A DNA stretch of 38,485 nucleotides from Mycobacterium sp. UM_WGJ (GTDB taxonomy: Bacteria > Actinomycetota > Actinomycetes > Mycobacteriales > Mycobacteriaceae). Shown here piece after piece: positions 22,429-36,897 of this stretch. The stretch lies in the NCBI RefSeq assembly GCF_000455125.1, contig NZ_AUWR01000061.1, positions 1 to 38,485 on the forward strand, written 5' to 3'. A program made the position numbers and the translations under genes. Each line of letters begins with the position of its first letter. Within the stretch, counting starts at the first letter, position 1. The notes beneath the pieces are model-generated. The model searched no databases. It was not told where the DNA came from and saw nothing but the letters and a program-made list of their open reading frames with translations.

Positions 22429-22481
22429 TGACACCCACTATCGATAATGCAGAGGGTAGCTACGGCGAAGGGCAGCGCTGA
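22428..22481 (+). CDS. 17-codon coupled mini-ORF between senX3 and regX3 (MIRU-like)
   Basis: ATG at 22428 shares its A with the senX3 TGA, and the mini-ORF TGA at 22479-22481 shares its A with the regX3 ATG. The peptide is [17 protein letters not shown]. In M. tuberculosis the same junction holds MIRU repeats of 77 and 53 bp whose ORFs overlap both neighbours in this TGATG way. Here one unit of about 53 bp occupies the gap. Its probable role is to carry ribosomes from senX3 to regX3. Sequence identity with known MIRUs was not checked. Confidence 0.6.
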   Translation: MTPTIDNAEGSYGEGQR

Positions 22482-23164
22482 TGACACATGTCTTGATCGT
22501 TGAGGACGAGGAATCGCTCGCCGACCCGTTGGCGTTTCTGCTGCGTAAGGAAGGTTTCGAGGCCACCGTGGTGGGCGACGGAACCGCCGCTTTGGCCGAA
22601 TTCGACCGGGCCGGCGCCGACATCGTGCTGCTGGATCTGATGCTGCCGGGGATGTCGGGCACCGACGTCTGCAAACAGTTGCGCGCGCGTTCCAGCGTGC
22701 CGGTGATTATGGTCACTGCCCGCGACAGCGAGATCGACAAGGTCGTCGGCCTGGAATTGGGCGCCGACGACTATGTGACCAAGCCGTATTCGGCCCGCGA
22801 GTTGATCGCCCGCATCCGGGCGGTGTTGCGCCGCGGCGGTGACGATGAGGGTGGCGTCGGCGAGGGCGTGTTGGAGTCCGGCCCGGTGCGCATGGATGTC
22901 GAGCGGCATGTGGTGATGGTGAACGGCGAGCAGATTACCTTGCCGCTCAAGGAATTCGACCTGCTCGAGTACCTGATGCGCAACACCGGTCGTGTGCTGA
23001 CCCGCGGTCAGTTGATCGACCGGGTCTGGGGTGCGGATTACGTCGGCGACACCAAAACGCTGGATGTCCACGTCAAAAGACTTCGGTCCAAGATCGAGGC
23101 CGACCCTGCCAATCCAGTGCACCTGGTTACCGTGCGTGGCCTCGGGTACAAGCTGGAGGGCTAA
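22481..23164 (+). CDS. regX3: response regulator RegX3
   Basis: OmpR/PhoB-family response regulator of 227 residues, phosphorylated by SenX3 and controlling phosphate-starvation genes. The receiver domain has the acidic pair in VEDEES, phospho-acceptor D52 in LLDLMLPG, T79 in VTARDS and K101 in TKPYSARELIARI. The C-terminal winged helix contains LPLKEFDLLEYLMRNTGRVLTRGQLIDRVWG and TLDVHVKRLRSKIE. The ATG overlaps the mini-ORF stop. In M. tuberculosis the gene is followed by Rv0492c; here the polyketide/peptide cluster follows instead. Confidence 0.96.
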   Translation: MTHVLIVEDEESLADPLAFLLRKEGFEATVVGDGTAALAEFDRAGADIVLLDLMLPGMSGTDVCKQLRARSSVPVIMVTARDSEIDKVVGLELGADDYVTKPYSARELIARIRAVLRRGGDDEGGVGEGVLESGPVRMDVERHVVMVNGEQITLPLKEFDLLEYLMRNTGRVLTRGQLIDRVWGADYVGDTKTLDVHVKRLRSKIEADPANPVHLVTVRGLGYKLEG

Positions 23165-23285: not shown

Positions 23286-23357
23286 TCAAGGTTGCCTACG
23301 GAATCCTTGGGCCCCATCCAGAACCCTTCTTCGCCAGTAACACGGGAGACGCGATCG

Positions 23358-30499
<7,142 letters not shown>

Positions 30500-30503
<4 letters not shown>

Positions 30504-33500
30504 CGGAGCGTCCGGACGTGCCCACCGACATCTCCAGCCTGTCGCCGGAGAAAAAGCGTGAGTTGCTTGCCCAGTTGCTGATGGCCAAGGCGCAGGACGC
30601 GGCAGCTGAGCATGAGCTGTCCTACGGGCAGCGCTCGATGTGGTTCATGCACCGGCTCGCGCCCGACAGCGCGGCCTACACCGTCGCCTACGCCGGACGC
30701 ATCGACGGCGGCCTGGATGTGCCGGCCCTGGAGCGGGCCGCGCAGGCGTTGGTGGCCCGGCACCCGATGCTGCGGACCACCTACACCGAACGGGACGGCC
30801 AGCCCGTCGCCCTGGTCCACGCACAGTGGCCGCTGCGGATCGCCACGCATCGCATCGGTGCGGACGCGGCCGAACTCGACCGGTGGGTCCAGGCGGAGAT
30901 CGACCGGCCCTTCGATCTGCGCACCGGCCCGGTGCTGCGGCTGACTCTCCTGCAGCGGCCGGACGACCACGTGCTGCTGCTGACGGTGCACCACATCGCG
31001 GTCGACTTCTGGTCCATCGACATCATCCTCGATGAACTGCGTGCGCTCTACGCCGCCGAACACGGAGCCACCCCTCCAGAAGAGACCGCAGACCGCTACG
31101 TCGACTACGCCGCTCAGCAGTCCCGGATGCTGGCCGGGCCCGAGGGCGAGCGGCTTTGGGAGTACTGGCATGAGACGCTGGGCGGCGAACTGCCGACCCT
31201 GGCCCTGCCCACCGATCGCCCGCGGCCCGCGATCCAGACCTACGACGGTGCGCTGCACCGGTTCAGCGTCGACGCCCAGGTCACCGCCGGGCTCAAGCAG
31301 GTGGCGCGGACCGTCGGAGCGACGCCTTACATGACCCTGCTGGCGGCCTATGCGGTGCTTTTGCACCGCTACAGCGGGCAGGACGACCTCATCATCGGTT
31401 CGCCGTTCGCCTGCCGCGACCGGGCCGGGCTGATGGGCATGGTCGGCTACGTCACCAACCCGCTGCCGCTGCGTGTCGACGTCAGTGACGACCCGAGCTT
31501 TGCTGCGTTGCTGGGGCAGGTCAAAGACACCGTGCTGGGCGCGATCGGCCACCAGGAGTACCCGCTGCCGCTGCTCGTCGAGCGGCTGCGGCCGGTGCGT
31601 GACGCCGGGCGCACCCCGCTGTTCCAGGTGTCGTTCGCCTGGCAGCAGGTCCGGCTGTTCGAAGACAACGTGTCGGGTGGGGACGGCGTCCTGCATCTGG
31701 AAACCCTCTACATCGGCCAGGGCGGCTCACCCTTCGACATCACCATGCAGGTCGGCGAGCAGGGCCCCGACGACGCTCGGGAACTTCAGCTTGCCCTGCA
31801 GTACAACACCGACCTGTTCGACGCCGCGACCATGCAGGCCCTAGCGCAGCACTTCACGCTGCTGCTGACCGAGCTGGCCCAGCCCGGGGCGGCGCAGCTC
31901 CCGGTCTCGCAGCTGAGGTTGCTCACCGACGCCGAGCGCGCCGCGCTGGCAGCCTGGAACGACACCGCGGTCGACTACTCGTCCGCTCCGGCCACCCTGC
32001 ACGAGATGGTCGCCGCAAGCGCCGCGCGCACCCCGGAGGCCGTCGCGGTCAGCTACGACGGCCGCGATATCAGCTATGGCGAACTGGACCGGCGGGCCAA
32101 CGGGCTGGCACACCGGTTGCGCCAGTTCGGTGTTGGCGCCGGCCCGGGTCCCGCTGTGGTTCCGGTGCTGCTCGAGCGCTCCGAGGACCTGGTGATCGCG
32201 CTGCTCGGCGTGCTCAAGGCCGGTGGGGTATTCCTGCCGCTGGACCCCGCGCAGCCCACCGGCCGGATGGAAGCGATGCTCGCCGACGTCCCCGATGCCC
32301 CGGTATGCGTCACGCACCGTGAGCATTTGCCGCATGTGCCAACGGGTTTCACCGGTGCCCGGCTGTGCCTGGATCAGCCGTCTACGGCGCCCGCCGAGGA
32401 AATGTCGGCTCCCGAGACGGGCACGACGTCCGCAGACCTGGCCTACCTGATGTACACCTCGGGTTCCACCGGGGCGCCCAAGGGCGCGCTGAACAGCCAC
32501 GCCGGCATTCGCAACCGGCTGCTGTGGATGCAGGACGCCTACCAGCTGACCGCCGAAGACCGGGTGCTGCACAAGACCCCGATCAACTTCGACCCGTTCG
32601 TCTGGGAGATCTTCTGGCCGTTGACGGTCGGCGCCCGGGTGGTGATCGCCAAACCCGAGGGCCACAAGGACGCCGCGTACCTGGCGCGCACCATCGTGGA
32701 ACAGCACGTCACCACAATGCATTTCGTTCCGTCGATGCTGCGCCGGTTCCTCGCGGAACCCCAGGCGGCCTCCTGTACCGGCCTGCGCAAGGTGTTCTGC
32801 AGCGGCGAAGCGCTCACCGCGGACCTGCGCGACAGCTTCTTCGCCACGCTGCCCGCCGAGCTGTACAACCTGTACGGCCCGACCGAAGCCGCCATCGACG
32901 TCACCCATTTCCATTGTGTGCGTGGGGAAACCGATCCGATCATCCCGATCGGCCGGCCGATCGCCAATATCGCGATCCACTTGCTGGACGCGGTGGGCAA
33001 CCCGGTTCCGATCGGAGTACCCGGCGAACTGCACATCGGCGGCGTGGGTGTCGGCCGTGGCTACCTGAACCGGCCCGAGGCCACCGCGGCCGCATTCGTG
33101 GAAGACCCGTTCAGCTCTGCGCCGGGTGCCTTGCTCTACCGCACCGGCGATCTGGCCCGCTACCGCCCAGACGGCACCATCGAGTATCTGGGCCGTCGCG
33201 ACGACCAGGTGAAGATCAACGGCTTCCGGATCGAACTCGGTGAGGTGGAGGCCGCGCTGGCCAAACACCCCGGTATCGCCGAGAACGCCGTCGTGGCACG
33301 CAAAGACGCCTCCGGCCACACCCAGCTGATCGCCCATATCGTGCCGGTCGCCGCGGCTCCGGGCACGGCCGAGTTGCGCCGCTTCCTGCTGGACCTGGTG
33401 CCGGCGGCGATGGTTCCGGCGGTGTTTCGCGCAGGCGATCTGCTGCCGTTGTCGGCCAGCGGCAAGGTGGATCGCCGGGCGCTGCTGGCCCTCGACAAGG

Positions 33501-35902
33501 ACCTGGACGCCGCGCCTACGGTGTTCGTCGCGCCCCGCGACGCCACCGAAGAGGCACTGGCCCAGATCTGGCGCGAGGTGCTCGATGTGGAGCGAGTCGG
33601 CGTGACCGATGACTTCTTCGCTCTTGGCGGCGCCTCCACCCAGGCGCTCGAAGTCGCAGTGCGCGTGGGGGAGCTCGGCCTGGAACTGCGGCCGGAGTCC
33701 CTGTTCGTCTACGGCACCATCGCTGAGCTGGCCGCCGAGTTCGGCCCGATCGGCGGGGCCGAGGCCGAGCAGGCAGGCGGGCCGCCCGCGCCACAGCCCG
33801 AACCCGTGGTGGTCGCGCCCCAGCCTGCTGCAGCGCCCAAGCCGGCCGCGGCACCGGCGATCAAACCCGTGCAGAACGGTCCGGCGCGCAACGTCGTGAT
33901 CGAGAGCCTCGGCGTGTACCTGCCGCCGCGGGCGGTCTCCACCGAACAGGTCCTGGCCGACTGCGTCAACGAGGTGAAGATCCCGCTGGAGCGACTCACC
34001 GGCATCAAGAACCGGCGGATGGCCGGCCAAGACGAGTTCTCGATCGACTTGGGCCGCAAGGCGATCGCCGACTGTTTGTCGCGGTCGAGCTACGCCCCCG
34101 AAGAGATCGACCTGGTGATCGCGTGCAACATCTCGCGCTGCGACGGCCCGGAGCACATGTTCACCTTCGAGCCGAGCACCGCGTCGCAGTTCCGTGACCA
34201 GCTGGGGCTGACCAACGCCGTCTGCTTCGACATCAACAATGCCTGCGCGGGCATGTTCACCGGCGTGAGCGTGGCCCAGGACTTCCTCAAAACCGGCCTG
34301 GTGCGCAACGCGTTGGTGGTCAGTGGCGAATACATCAGCCACATCACCGAAACCGCGCAGCAGGAGATCGAAAGTGCGATGGACCCGCGGCTGGCCTGCC
34401 TGACCGTCGGCGACGCCGGCGCGGCCGCGGTGCTCGAACTCGGGCCCAACGACCGGGTCGGTTTCCACGATCTGGATCTGGCCACGTTCAGCGAATTCGC
34501 CAAGCTGTGCATCGCCAAGGCCACCGAAGGTCCGCACGGCGGCGCCATCATGGTCACCGACTCGGTCACCCAGACCGCGATCGCGGTAAAGCACTCGGTG
34601 CCGTATGTGGCGGCGGTCATGCAGCGGCACGGCTGGCGTCCCGAGACGGCTGATCAGTTGCTCATGCATCAGACCTCCGAGGCGTCGATCAACGACGCCA
34701 TCCTGACCATCAACCGGGTCTTCGGTGCCGGGGCCGCAAGCCGGGCCAACACCATCTGCAACCTCGCAGAGCGCGGGAACACCGCTACCACGACGCATTT
34801 TGTTGCGCTGTATGACTACATCAACGCTGGGCGTATCAACTCCGGTGACAACGTCGTACTGTCCATCACCGGCTCCGGGCAGACCATCGGAACCGGCCTC
34901 TACACATTCGACGACCTGCCCGACCGGATGCGGCGGGCCGGCAACGCCCGCTCCGGCAGCGGCACGCGCGGCGGCCGCTCCGGCGGCGGTCGCCGGGAAC
35001 TCCCGGCGACGCCGCGCGTGCGCATCGAGGGCATCGGCATCGCTCCAGAGGGGCAGACGCCGCCCAGCTCGATCCAGTTCGCCGTCGACGCCGCTACCGC
35101 CTGCCTGGCCGACAGCGGTGTCGACCGCACCGACGTCGGCCTGGTGATCCACGCCGGCATCTACCGCGACGACTTCCTGTCCGAGCCGGCCGTCGCGACC
35201 CTGGTCGCCGGGGAGGTCGGAATCAACGCCGAGCCGGAGTCCGCGGACGCCCCCAAGACCTTCGCGTTCGACGTCCTCAACGGCGCGGTCGGTTTCCTCA
35301 ACGGCTGCCATGTGGCGGCCGGCATGATCGGTGCCGGGCGGACCGGACATGCCATGGTGCTGGCCTCCGAAGTGGAGAACAACACGGCGGAGAGCGGGTA
35401 CCCGCGCAACGGTATCGCCGAGACGGGTTCGGCACTCATGCTGAGCCCCAGCCACGGACCAGAAGGCTTCGGCCGGTTCGTCTTCGGCCACCACCCGGAG
35501 TATCGGGGCGCACTGGCTACCTACACCCAGGAGCGCGACGGCCGGATGTGGCTGCGGATCGACCGCGACCCGAACCTGGCCGCGATCTACGTCAGCTGCC
35601 TGCCCTCGTCGGTCAAGGAGTTGCTGACGCTGGAGGGTCTGGCGCCCCAGGACATCGCGTTGGTGTTCCCGCCGTACCTGCCCGGTGCGGCCCTCGATGA
35701 GCTGGCCGCGCACATCGATGTGGAACGGTCGCGGTTCGTCGACCTCGAAGCGCAGGGCCAGACCAGTGACCCGTTCACCTCGACGCTGCCCTACCAGATC
35801 GTCGACGCCCGCCGGCGCGGCCTGGTCAAGCCGGGCGACATCGCGCTGATCATGGCGGTCGGCTCGGGTGTCGAGGTCGCTTGCACGACCTACCGGTTCT
35901 GA
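30500..35902 (+). CDS. nonribosomal peptide synthetase C-A-PCP fused to a tandem KAS III didomain
   Basis: An 1800-residue megasynthase. The N-terminal docking helix (LSPEKKRELLAQLL) suits the upstream C-terminus. C domain (about 36-470) has HHIAVDF at 164-170, with F in place of the usual final G. A domain (about 490-1010) has TSGSTGAPKG, YGPTE and K989; its pocket residues D698, P699, W702, H741, F766, S768, L791, I799, D800 read as a serine-type code. PCP S1046 lies in GGASTQ. After a Pro/Ala linker come two KAS III-fold domains. The first (about 1131-1478) has C1249 (NNACAGMF), H1390 (LLMHQTS) and N1427 (RGNTATTT). The second (about 1508-1800) has A1596 at the Cys position and lacks the His and Asn. 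No thioesterase or reductase is present. Release probably uses the KAS III unit. Confidence 0.9.
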
Positions 35903-35907
35903 TCGGC

Positions 35908-36897
35908 ATGCGCGCATTCGTCACCGGGGGAACCGGATTCGTCGGCTCGAACCTGGTCGCCGCGCTGTTGGAGCGGGGCATGCAGGTGCGGGTGTTGCGT
36001 CGCTCGACCTCGCCGATGGCCGCGCTGGAGGGTTTGGACTGCGAGACCCGAATCGGCGACGTCAATGACGGCGTCGAGGCACTGACCGAGGCGATGGCCG
36101 GCTGCGACTGGGTGTTTCACACCGCGGCGATTTCCGACTACTGGCGTTACCGGACGCAGACCCGGCTCTACCGCACCAATGTCGACGGCACCCGCGATAT
36201 GGCCACCGCCGCTGCGCGCGCCGGGGTTCAGCGATTTGTCTACACCAGTTCACTTGCCGCACTGGGGGTCCCGGAACGGGGACATGAGCTGGTCGAGACC
36301 GATGAATTCAACATCCGCCCGAGGCAGTTCCCCTACGCGCACAGCAAGCACCTCGCCGAGGCTGAGCTGCAGAGGGCCGCTGCTGCCGGTCTGCCGGTGG
36401 TGATCGTGAACCCGTCCGCGGTCATCGGTCCTCGCGATGTCAACCGCATCGCCAGCGCAATGCTCGTCGAAGCGCAACATGGGCGGTTGTGGTTCGCCGC
36501 ACCCGGCGGCACCAACTTCGTCTCTGTCGACGATGTCGTGGCCGGCCACATCGCCGCCGCCGAGCGGGGACGCATCGGGGAGCGCTACATCCTGGGTGGG
36601 GAAAACCTACTGTTCCGTGAGGCGTTCACGGAAGCCTGCGCGCTCTTCGGGCGTCCCGGGCCGTCGGTGATGTTGCCGCGCTGGTTCATTCCGGTGGCCG
36701 CGGCCGGGGTCAGCGTCGCCCGCGTCGTGGTGGGACCGCGGCTGCCGATCGACGCCCGTCAGATGCGGCTGTCGACGGCCGAGATCTTCGCCGACGCCAG
36801 CAAGTCGCGTGAGGAGCTGGGGGTGCCGTTCACGCCTTTCCGCACCGCGCTGCGGGCCGGCTACGAGTGGTACCGCGCCAACGGCTATCTGGACTAG
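35908..36897 (+). CDS. NAD(P)-dependent extended SDR, epimerase/3-beta-HSD type
   Basis: A 329-residue extended short-chain dehydrogenase. The cofactor motif VTGGTGFVGSNL starts at residue 5, HTAAISDYWR follows, the serine is in VYTSSLAALG, and the YxxxK pair is Y143 and K147 in FPYAHSKHLAE. Its resemblance is to hopanoid-associated epimerases, dihydroflavonol reductases and 3-beta-hydroxysteroid/2-alkyl-3-ketoacid reductases rather than sugar epimerases proper. ATG 35908 lies 5 nt after the synthetase stop; a TTG at 35881 would overlap it. Tight spacing makes it the third gene of the biosynthetic operon, probably reducing or otherwise tailoring the released keto product. The substrate is not known. 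Confidence 0.88.
   Translation: MRAFVTGGTGFVGSNLVAALLERGMQVRVLRRSTSPMAALEGLDCETRIGDVNDGVEALTEAMAGCDWVFHTAAISDYWRYRTQTRLYRTNVDGTRDMATAAARAGVQRFVYTSSLAALGVPERGHELVETDEFNIRPRQFPYAHSKHLAEAELQRAAAAGLPVVIVNPSAVIGPRDVNRIASAMLVEAQHGRLWFAAPGGTNFVSVDDVVAGHIAAAERGRIGERYILGGENLLFREAFTEACALFGRPGPSVMLPRWFIPVAAAGVSVARVVVGPRLPIDARQMRLSTAEIFADASKSREELGVPFTPFRTALRAGYEWYRANGYLD

Follow-up and report, generated by a model that had tools for sequence, protein, structure and literature searches.

A mycobacterial nonribosomal peptide synthetase ending in a KAS III didomain with features of LstAB/OleA-type condensing enzymes

The analysed stretch of DNA, called the window in the following, comprises 38,485 nucleotides of Mycobacterium sp. 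UM_WGJ and lies on contig C61 of a 4.47 Mb genome in 116 contigs; the best-matching records belong to Mycolicibacter, with 94-95% identity in the best segment. It harbours three successive genes on one strand, which code for a polyketide synthase (PKS), a nonribosomal peptide synthetase (NRPS) and a short-chain dehydrogenase/reductase (SDR). The present study is mainly concerned with the NRPS, which consists of condensation (C), adenylation (A) and peptidyl carrier protein (PCP) domains and then, at the place where a thioesterase is expected, a tail of two domains related to ketoacyl-acyl carrier protein synthase III (KAS III), named KS3a and KS3b. The assignment of this didomain to the enzyme class represented by LstA/LstB from lipstatin biosynthesis in Streptomyces toxytricini and by OleA appears well supported by sequence comparisons.

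The NRPS and its C-terminal KAS III didomain

The NRPS gene and the features of its product are located as follows (amino acids, aa).

30500..35902, plus strand: NRPS C-A-PCP-KS3a-KS3b, single open frame of 1800 aa (open reading frame, Pfam)
30611..31948, plus strand: condensation domain, HHxxxD intact (Pfam, motif)
32015..33466, plus strand: adenylation domain, code DPWHFSLIDK, Ser-like (Pfam, code reading)
33554..33736, plus strand: peptidyl carrier protein, LGGAS with its Ser (Pfam, motif)
33890..34924, plus strand: KS3a, catalytic KAS III domain, LstA/OleA-like (Pfam, profiles, model)
34244..34246, plus strand: C1249, nucleophile of KS3a, invariant in 29/29 rows (alignment)
34667..34669, plus strand: H1390 of KS3a, invariant in 29/29 rows (alignment)
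34778..34780, plus strand: N1427 of KS3a, invariant in 29/29 rows (alignment)
34949..34993, plus strand: linker between KS3a and KS3b, disordered (AlphaFold2 model residues 354-368, predicted local distance difference test, pLDDT, below 50)
34985..35899, plus strand: KS3b, KAS III fold without Cys/His/Asn, LstB-like partner (alignment, profile)
35183..35185, plus strand: E1562 of KS3b, proposed general base for the KS3a site, invariant in 30/30 rows (alignment)

A first-pass annotation, made from the DNA sequence, had already described a KAS III tail behind C-A-PCP in place of the usual thioesterase, and the Pfam domain order agrees with it: Condensation at residues 38-483, AMP-binding at 506-856, AMP-binding_C at 915-989 and PP-binding at 1019-1079 are followed by ACP_syn_III at 1243-1324 and ACP_syn_III_C at 1374-1468 (the better of two stretches). 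The catalytic residues C1249, H1390 and N1427 named there were found at exactly these positions. The claim that thioesterase, reductase and terminal C domains are missing was borne out as well, because neither the PKS nor the NRPS protein gave a Pfam match to a thioesterase, a thioester reductase or a further condensation domain at an E-value of 0.001; the gene after the NRPS gave an SDR fold alone at the same threshold. The second thiolase-fold domain proposed by the annotation proved KAS III-like in a profile comparison, in which chain 2ebd_A scored 110.5 bits and profile positions 16-301 were aligned, and an AlphaFold2 model of KS3a and KS3b together reached a mean pLDDT of 86.8 and a predicted template modelling score (pTM) of 0.92. 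The fold of KS3b is thus supported by a sequence profile and a two-domain model, and no unrelated fold was seen at the C-terminus. In five pairwise comparisons with relatives, KS3a showed each time the lowest dN/dS among C, A, PCP, KS3a and KS3b (0.022, 0.033, 0.066, 0.170 and 0.183), and the linker values that could be computed lay at 0.24-0.99. KS3a is thus the most constrained of these domains.

The end of KS3a carries the motif FDDLP (window:34907-34921), which is invariant in 19 alignment rows and absent from 9/9 unfused KS3a rows. It varies in two further fused rows, to LDDLP in L094 from Chloroflexota and to MDGLA in L093 from Bacteroidota. Judged from the alignment, FDDLP is a motif linked to the fusion.

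Active-site residues and relatedness of the two halves

In KS3b of the window the motif NACAG is replaced by NGAVG, and Cys, His and Asn are all lost. The alignment of KS3b comprises 30 rows, 20 from didomains and ten from standalone proteins, and contains six fully invariant columns, two of which are the Glu and the Pro of a Glu-Pro pair. In a joint alignment this Glu shares its column with the Glu of 6/6 OleA proteins, drawn from oleA-oleB/C-oleD clusters, and the same column holds Thr (Thr-Pro) in the single FabH-like row that was included, L002 from the window's own genome. The Glu is found at residue 57-59 in 10/10 standalone KS3b proteins, with starts chosen mechanically. KS3a likewise has the Glu in 12/13 rows, where it would face the dead site if the analogy to LstAB holds. 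The residues typical of the OleA family, which include a Glu (117 in X. campestris) with Pro after it, are present as E, C, H and N in KS3a and as Glu-Pro in KS3b, in the same columns as in the six OleA rows.

In OleA, the Glu of one subunit serves as general base in the active site of the other, and Glu-Pro occurs in all but two of the OleA proteins aligned, according to the parts of the publication consulted (PMC7064751). For LstAB, the consulted sections of a review report that LstA carries C128/H271/N305, that E60 of LstB is essential and that neither subunit is soluble alone (PMC12141560). Since KS3a has Cys, His and Asn and the Cys-less KS3b has a Glu in the OleA column and in LstB-like position, the didomain unites the components of an LstAB/OleA-type enzyme in a single polypeptide. 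By this match to the OleA and LstB positions, the Glu of KS3b is most likely catalytic.

The overall similarity is less specific for OleA than this residue pattern. The expectation that OleA would be the best sequence match of KS3a had to be rejected, because FabH chains came first when its profile was compared with the PDB; OleA scored 116 bits, PqsD 105 and PqsC 78. The profile of KS3b gave 110.5 bits with FabH, 78.8 with OleA, 50.7 with CorB, 45.9 with CerJ and 38.4 with ChlB3, and by fold score OleA, PqsD and FabH tie for KS3a (covering at most model residues 1-354). In a tree calculated without a FabH row and with the unfused pairs L098 and L099 as stand-ins for LstA/LstB, KS3a together with its unfused counterparts forms one side (97/98) and KS3b another (100/100), with seven OleA rows apart from them (100/100). 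The fused didomains cluster within both halves (98/99 and 100/98), and the two halves mirror each other. KS3a was therefore rejected as a member of the OleA family, as it represents a branch separate from the OleA proteins of oleA-oleB/C-oleD clusters. From its sequence, the didomain appears to work like OleA yet groups outside OleA.

Distribution, gene neighbourhoods and serine specificity

The search for other C-A-PCP-KASIII-KASIII proteins, as suggested by the first-pass annotation, was successful. In a genus-level set, 120/297 genomes gave a match at 1e-30, and the full didomain with more than 800 bits was found in 33 of the 297 at 34 places, the window included. All five domains lie in one frame at 30/33 loci opened. 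This tail fusion is not a chance product, because full-length homologues exist in 33/297 genomes and 30/33 loci show a single frame. One genome, G245, has two distinct full-length copies (G245:C7 and G245:C78), which are 59% and 58% identical to that of the window. Beyond the genus, the didomain occurs in Nocardia, Chloroflexota and Bacteroidota. Among 396 genomes drawn evenly from the phylum of the window nine matched at 1e-30, with the full didomain in the window's genome only; even draws with the centre genome counted gave 2/395 for the phylum of L060 and 4/201 for that of L059. In Nocardia amamiensis a gene for an MMPL-family transporter comes after the fused NRPS (L062:12031-14190), which suggests an exported lipid.

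In the other 87 genus-level genomes the match covered no more than one KAS III domain, in whole or in part, with 33-39% identity. Seven of these single-domain hits were opened (L065-L071), and each lies in a KS3a-like KAS III gene with a KS3b-like one directly after it; one of the genomes concerned contains the didomain as well. Together with four further unfused pairs (L097-L100) 11 such pairs were opened, and two of them, L098 and L099, have OleC- and OleD-like genes beside them. Both domains thus exist as unfused pairs elsewhere in the actinobacteria. The LstAB-like pairs from other mycobacteria lie at L065:4133-6110, L066:4793-6776, L067:4929-6903, L068:4935-6897, L069:4938-6948 (first gene split into two frames), L070:4923-6918 and L071:4878-6918, and their frames overlap by 17 nt with mechanical starts. 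Their neighbours include genes for a GAF histidine kinase and PfkB (L068), WS/DGAT (L066), a NiFe hydrogenase (L065) and an AMP-ligase (L070), a setting that we take to resemble a hypoxia/dormancy region.

Free didomains of 681-688 aa are found in two Bacteroidota clusters (L060 with L102, L064 with L101). Both are accompanied by oleB/oleC/oleD-like genes, a P450, a fatty acyl-AMP ligase (FAAL), an LLM oxygenase, a protein with acyl carrier protein (ACP), ketosynthase (KS), acyltransferase (AT) and ketoreductase (KR) in the order ACP-KS-AT-KR-ACP, and a free C-A-PCP whose A code is Gly-like in L101 and L102; an adenylyl-sulfate kinase gene is also present in the L060 cluster. With PRK09274 the OleC-like protein of L060 scored 700 bits, above the cut-off of 478, and with the olefin beta-lactone synthetase model 630, short of the cut-off of 850; in NCBIfam the OleD-like protein scored 416 bits (cut-off 580) and the OleB-like protein 171 to haloalkane dehalogenase (cut-off 241). 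By gene content, both look like undescribed olefin or beta-lactone lipopeptide clusters. At L093, the third locus from Bacteroidota, a free didomain is accompanied by FAAL, LLM oxygenase, ACP-KS-AT and P450, and ole-like genes were not found in the 18 kb examined. The fourth, L063 (5.3 kb), contains of these parts the didomain alone, such that ole-like genes accompany the didomain at 2/4 Bacteroidota loci. In Chloroflexota, the C-A-PCP-KS3a-KS3b fusion was found in three genomes, and L096 codes for a FAAL-to-PCP protein of 2516 aa followed by a free didomain of 669 aa. No ole-like genes were seen in L094-L096, and a thioesterase gene (PF00975) comes after the fusion in L094. The FAAL/PKS/NRPS line thus stays with the didomain, fused or not. 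Directly upstream of the fused NRPS, an LLM-oxygenase-like stretch joined to KR-ACP is encoded at L094:13403-17407 (1334 aa) and L095:829-4596 (1255 aa), and a similar protein start was seen in L059 from Thermosporothrix hazakensis.

In the window, the NRPS gene is flanked by the two other genes of the set.

23292..30503, plus strand: FAAL-ACP-KS-AT-KR-ACP protein, 2403 aa (Pfam, NCBIfam, motifs; start codon not certain, since translation might begin at a later in-frame ATG)
35908..36897, plus strand: extended SDR, HpnA-like, YAHSK (Pfam, NCBIfam; likely ATG 5 nt past the NRPS stop)

The motifs found in the PKS are TACSS/HGTGT/NIGH in KS, GGLGAVG/YGAAN in KR, GHSLG in AT, and GLDSI and GVDSL in the ACPs, and the catalytic motifs sought in PKS, C, PCP and SDR were all present. 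Its domain set predicts fatty acid activation and one round of extension with ketoreduction. The AT also carries VASH, which we regard as a hint of methylmalonyl. Upstream of the PKS, the genes presumably correspond to an mshA-gpm1-senX3-regX3 region, as judged from their translations, and NCBIfam placed 22481-23164 among OmpR-type response regulators. Past the SDR, the minus strand contains an open frame of 458 aa (window:36916-38292) without an NCBIfam match at 0.01, which we take by eye to be a DUF222/HNH-type repeat protein.

The first-pass annotation had assumed serine as substrate, in line with the Ser-like code of the window. Of 71 A domains, window counted, 59 are Ser-like, two Gly-like, two Ala-like and eight of another type; some places carry two locus ids, both Ala-like codes are one place taken twice, and the eight are all mycobacterial. 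Near the NRPS stop, 40 of 58 mycobacterial loci have an orthologue of the SDR (>60% identity), seven a different SDR (two on the same and five on the opposite strand) and 11 none within 1600 nt; the SDR was therefore rejected as a universal part. An SDR is present at 47/49 loci with a Ser-like code and at 0/8 with another code, the 11 loci without it comprising these eight non-Ser loci, two Ser-like ones and one with an unreadable code. This association points to the serine-derived product as the substrate of the SDR, even if the eight non-Ser loci are interrelated, some loci may represent one species sampled in two collections, and the downstream DNA of L001 and L003-L031 extends over only about 1.1-1.5 kb. 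The SDR scored 292.6 bits with HpnA in NCBIfam, under the cut-off of 367.65, and its identity as OleD (2-alkyl-3-oxoalkanoate reductase) was rejected at 104 bits (cut-off 580). At the mycobacterial locus L053 the gene that begins at the NRPS stop, where Mycolicibacter has the SDR, codes for a berberine-bridge-like FAD oxidase (L053:12037-13404, 455 aa), and a 455-aa gene begins likewise in the mycobacterial locus L055 (Pfam was run on the L053 copy).

Proposed release reaction, rival readings and known counterparts

We consider it probable, at about 0.64, that the didomain is a single-chain condensing heterodimer of the LstAB/OleA type, which frees the NRPS chain by forming a C-C bond. FAAL would load a fatty acid, KS-AT-KR would lengthen it to a 3-hydroxyacyl chain, and C-A-PCP would amidate serine to give N-(3-hydroxyacyl)-Ser-S-PCP. 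C1249 of KS3a would then be acylated, most likely with the N-acyl-seryl chain carried by the PCP, E1562 of KS3b would take the alpha proton from a second acyl thioester, and that thioester would attack in a non-decarboxylative Claisen condensation. The freed alpha-alkyl-beta-keto acid might be converted into a ketone by CO2 loss or be reduced by the adjacent SDR. The PCP-bound chain as electrophile, an acyl-CoA as nucleophile and the SDR step are deduced from LstAB and the gene order, and the identity of the second chain is a presumption as well. In the window's genome the best OleC candidate gave 161 bits (PRK09274 cut-off 478) and no OleD hit appeared at 1e-60; a beta-lactone cluster was rejected for the window on these grounds. 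Because no OleC over the cut-off exists in the genome, the product should be a ketone or a beta-hydroxy acid and not a beta-lactone.

An unlikely but bolder possibility is that the thiotemplated line makes ceramide-like lipids with no need for serine palmitoyltransferase, which would be a convergent path to sphingolipid skeletons in mycobacteria. In this case, the didomain would join PCP-bound N-(3-hydroxyacyl)-Ser to a fatty acyl-CoA, whose own carboxyl would be lost as CO2 to give HOCH2-CH(NHCOR)-CO-CH2R', a 3-ketodihydroceramide skeleton with a C18 base if the acyl-CoA is C16, and the adjacent SDR might reduce it to a dihydroceramide-like lipid. The presence of an SDR at 47/49 Ser-like and 0/8 other, interrelated loci is in line with this route, and literature searches aimed at it gave no lipid data for or against it, none of the listed titles being on mycobacteria.

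The first-pass annotation had left the choice between C-C bond formation, ring closure within the chain and acyl transfer to the serine hydroxyl, and had named the second domain by its thiolase fold only. The first of these is favoured by the LstA/LstB match and the Glu of KS3b, and, as the two domains match a heterodimer that receives its Glu from the second subunit, the evidence points to an intermolecular head-to-head condensation; tetramate closure and O-acylation are disfavoured. Some findings weigh against an LstAB/OleA-type condensation, namely that 9/11 unfused pairs have no ole neighbours in the DNA examined, that the ole models in Bacteroidota stayed mostly under their cut-offs, and that FabH and PqsD equal OleA by fold. 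A decarboxylative condensation of the FabH type, in which KS3a would use a malonyl thioester to form a gamma-amino-beta-keto acid, statine-like after SDR reduction, could make use of the C-H-N triad that KS3a shares with FabH and would agree with the FabH chains on top of the PDB search and with the adjoining SDR. It is nevertheless unlikely, because the Glu invariant in KS3b is absent from the one FabH-like protein compared, the NRPS protein has no downstream carrier protein or thioesterase to receive or release the product, and oleB/C/D-like genes stand beside the didomain in two Bacteroidota.

A PqsBC/PqsD-like condensation with a small non-lipid partner would explain the combination of a live and a dead domain, since PqsBC is a heterodimeric KAS III with PqsB as the dead subunit, and PqsD is level with OleA and FabH by fold and reaches 105 bits with the KS3a profile. 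However, the same profile gives PqsC 78 bits and OleA 116, and oleB/C/D-like genes neighbour the didomain in two Bacteroidota, which makes this the least expected of the outcomes. Formation of a tetramate or pyrandione ring by intramolecular Dieckmann condensation, which has been proposed for the KS of fungal TAS1, would fit the KS fold at the end of an NRPS module, a position analogous to that in TAS1. It is very unlikely, because the tail is of KAS III type, its partner domain conserves a Glu and the KR motifs GGLGAVG and YGAAN upstream are intact, such that the acyl group should be 3-hydroxy and not the 3-oxo group needed for easy closure. It is about equally unlikely that the didomain acts in O- or N-acyl transfer of the CerJ/ChlB3 type, by which the seryl hydroxyl or an external alcohol would be esterified to an ester lipid. 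KAS III acyltransferases do exist, and CerJ and ChlB3 are among the weak KS3b profile matches, but both rank below FabH and OleA with this profile, and a Cys-less partner bearing a Glu is the LstAB pattern.

If an LstAB/OleA-type condensation takes place, it would be a new mode of NRPS release, in which an in-line pair replaces thioesterase or reductase and joins the chain head-to-head with a second fatty chain. Mycolicibacter and other mycobacteria would then be predicted to make a two-chain amino-lipid, and those Nocardia, Chloroflexota and Bacteroidota that have the same domain set to make related products; serine as the amino acid makes the ceramide-like product testable. As a single-chain LstAB, the didomain would furthermore open the cross-subunit Glu mechanism to study without a heterodimer of singly insoluble subunits. 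The parts are known, and the annotation's statement that the architecture was not recognised as described holds, in that no NRPS ending in an LstAB/OleA-type pair was found in the open-licence literature searched.

Among known systems, the fungal NRPS-KS TAS1 likewise has an NRPS module that terminates in a KS-fold domain, but its KS is not known to be a KAS III pair and forms a ring from a single chain. CorB and MxnB are free-standing, pyrone-forming enzymes, and CorB reached only 50.7 bits with the KS3b profile. They are similar in being KAS III homologues that join two assembly-line polyketide chains head-to-head, as stated in the consulted part of PMC12304814. OleA has the E-C-H-N pattern in common with the didomain and fits KS3a as well as any solved KAS III (in a tie with PqsD and FabH), whereas it is a homodimer acting on two acyl-CoAs, and KS3a lies on another side of the tree (100/100). 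The review mentions natural fusion chimeras in its consulted sections, citing the LstAB paper (PMC12141560), and LstA-LstB fusions as such may already have been noted there. LstA/LstB resemble the didomain, as judged from published residues, in combining a C/H/N half with a Cys-less half that has a Glu near residue 60. The window differs from them in a genome without an OleC over the cut-off and in the union of both halves in one chain behind C-A-PCP.
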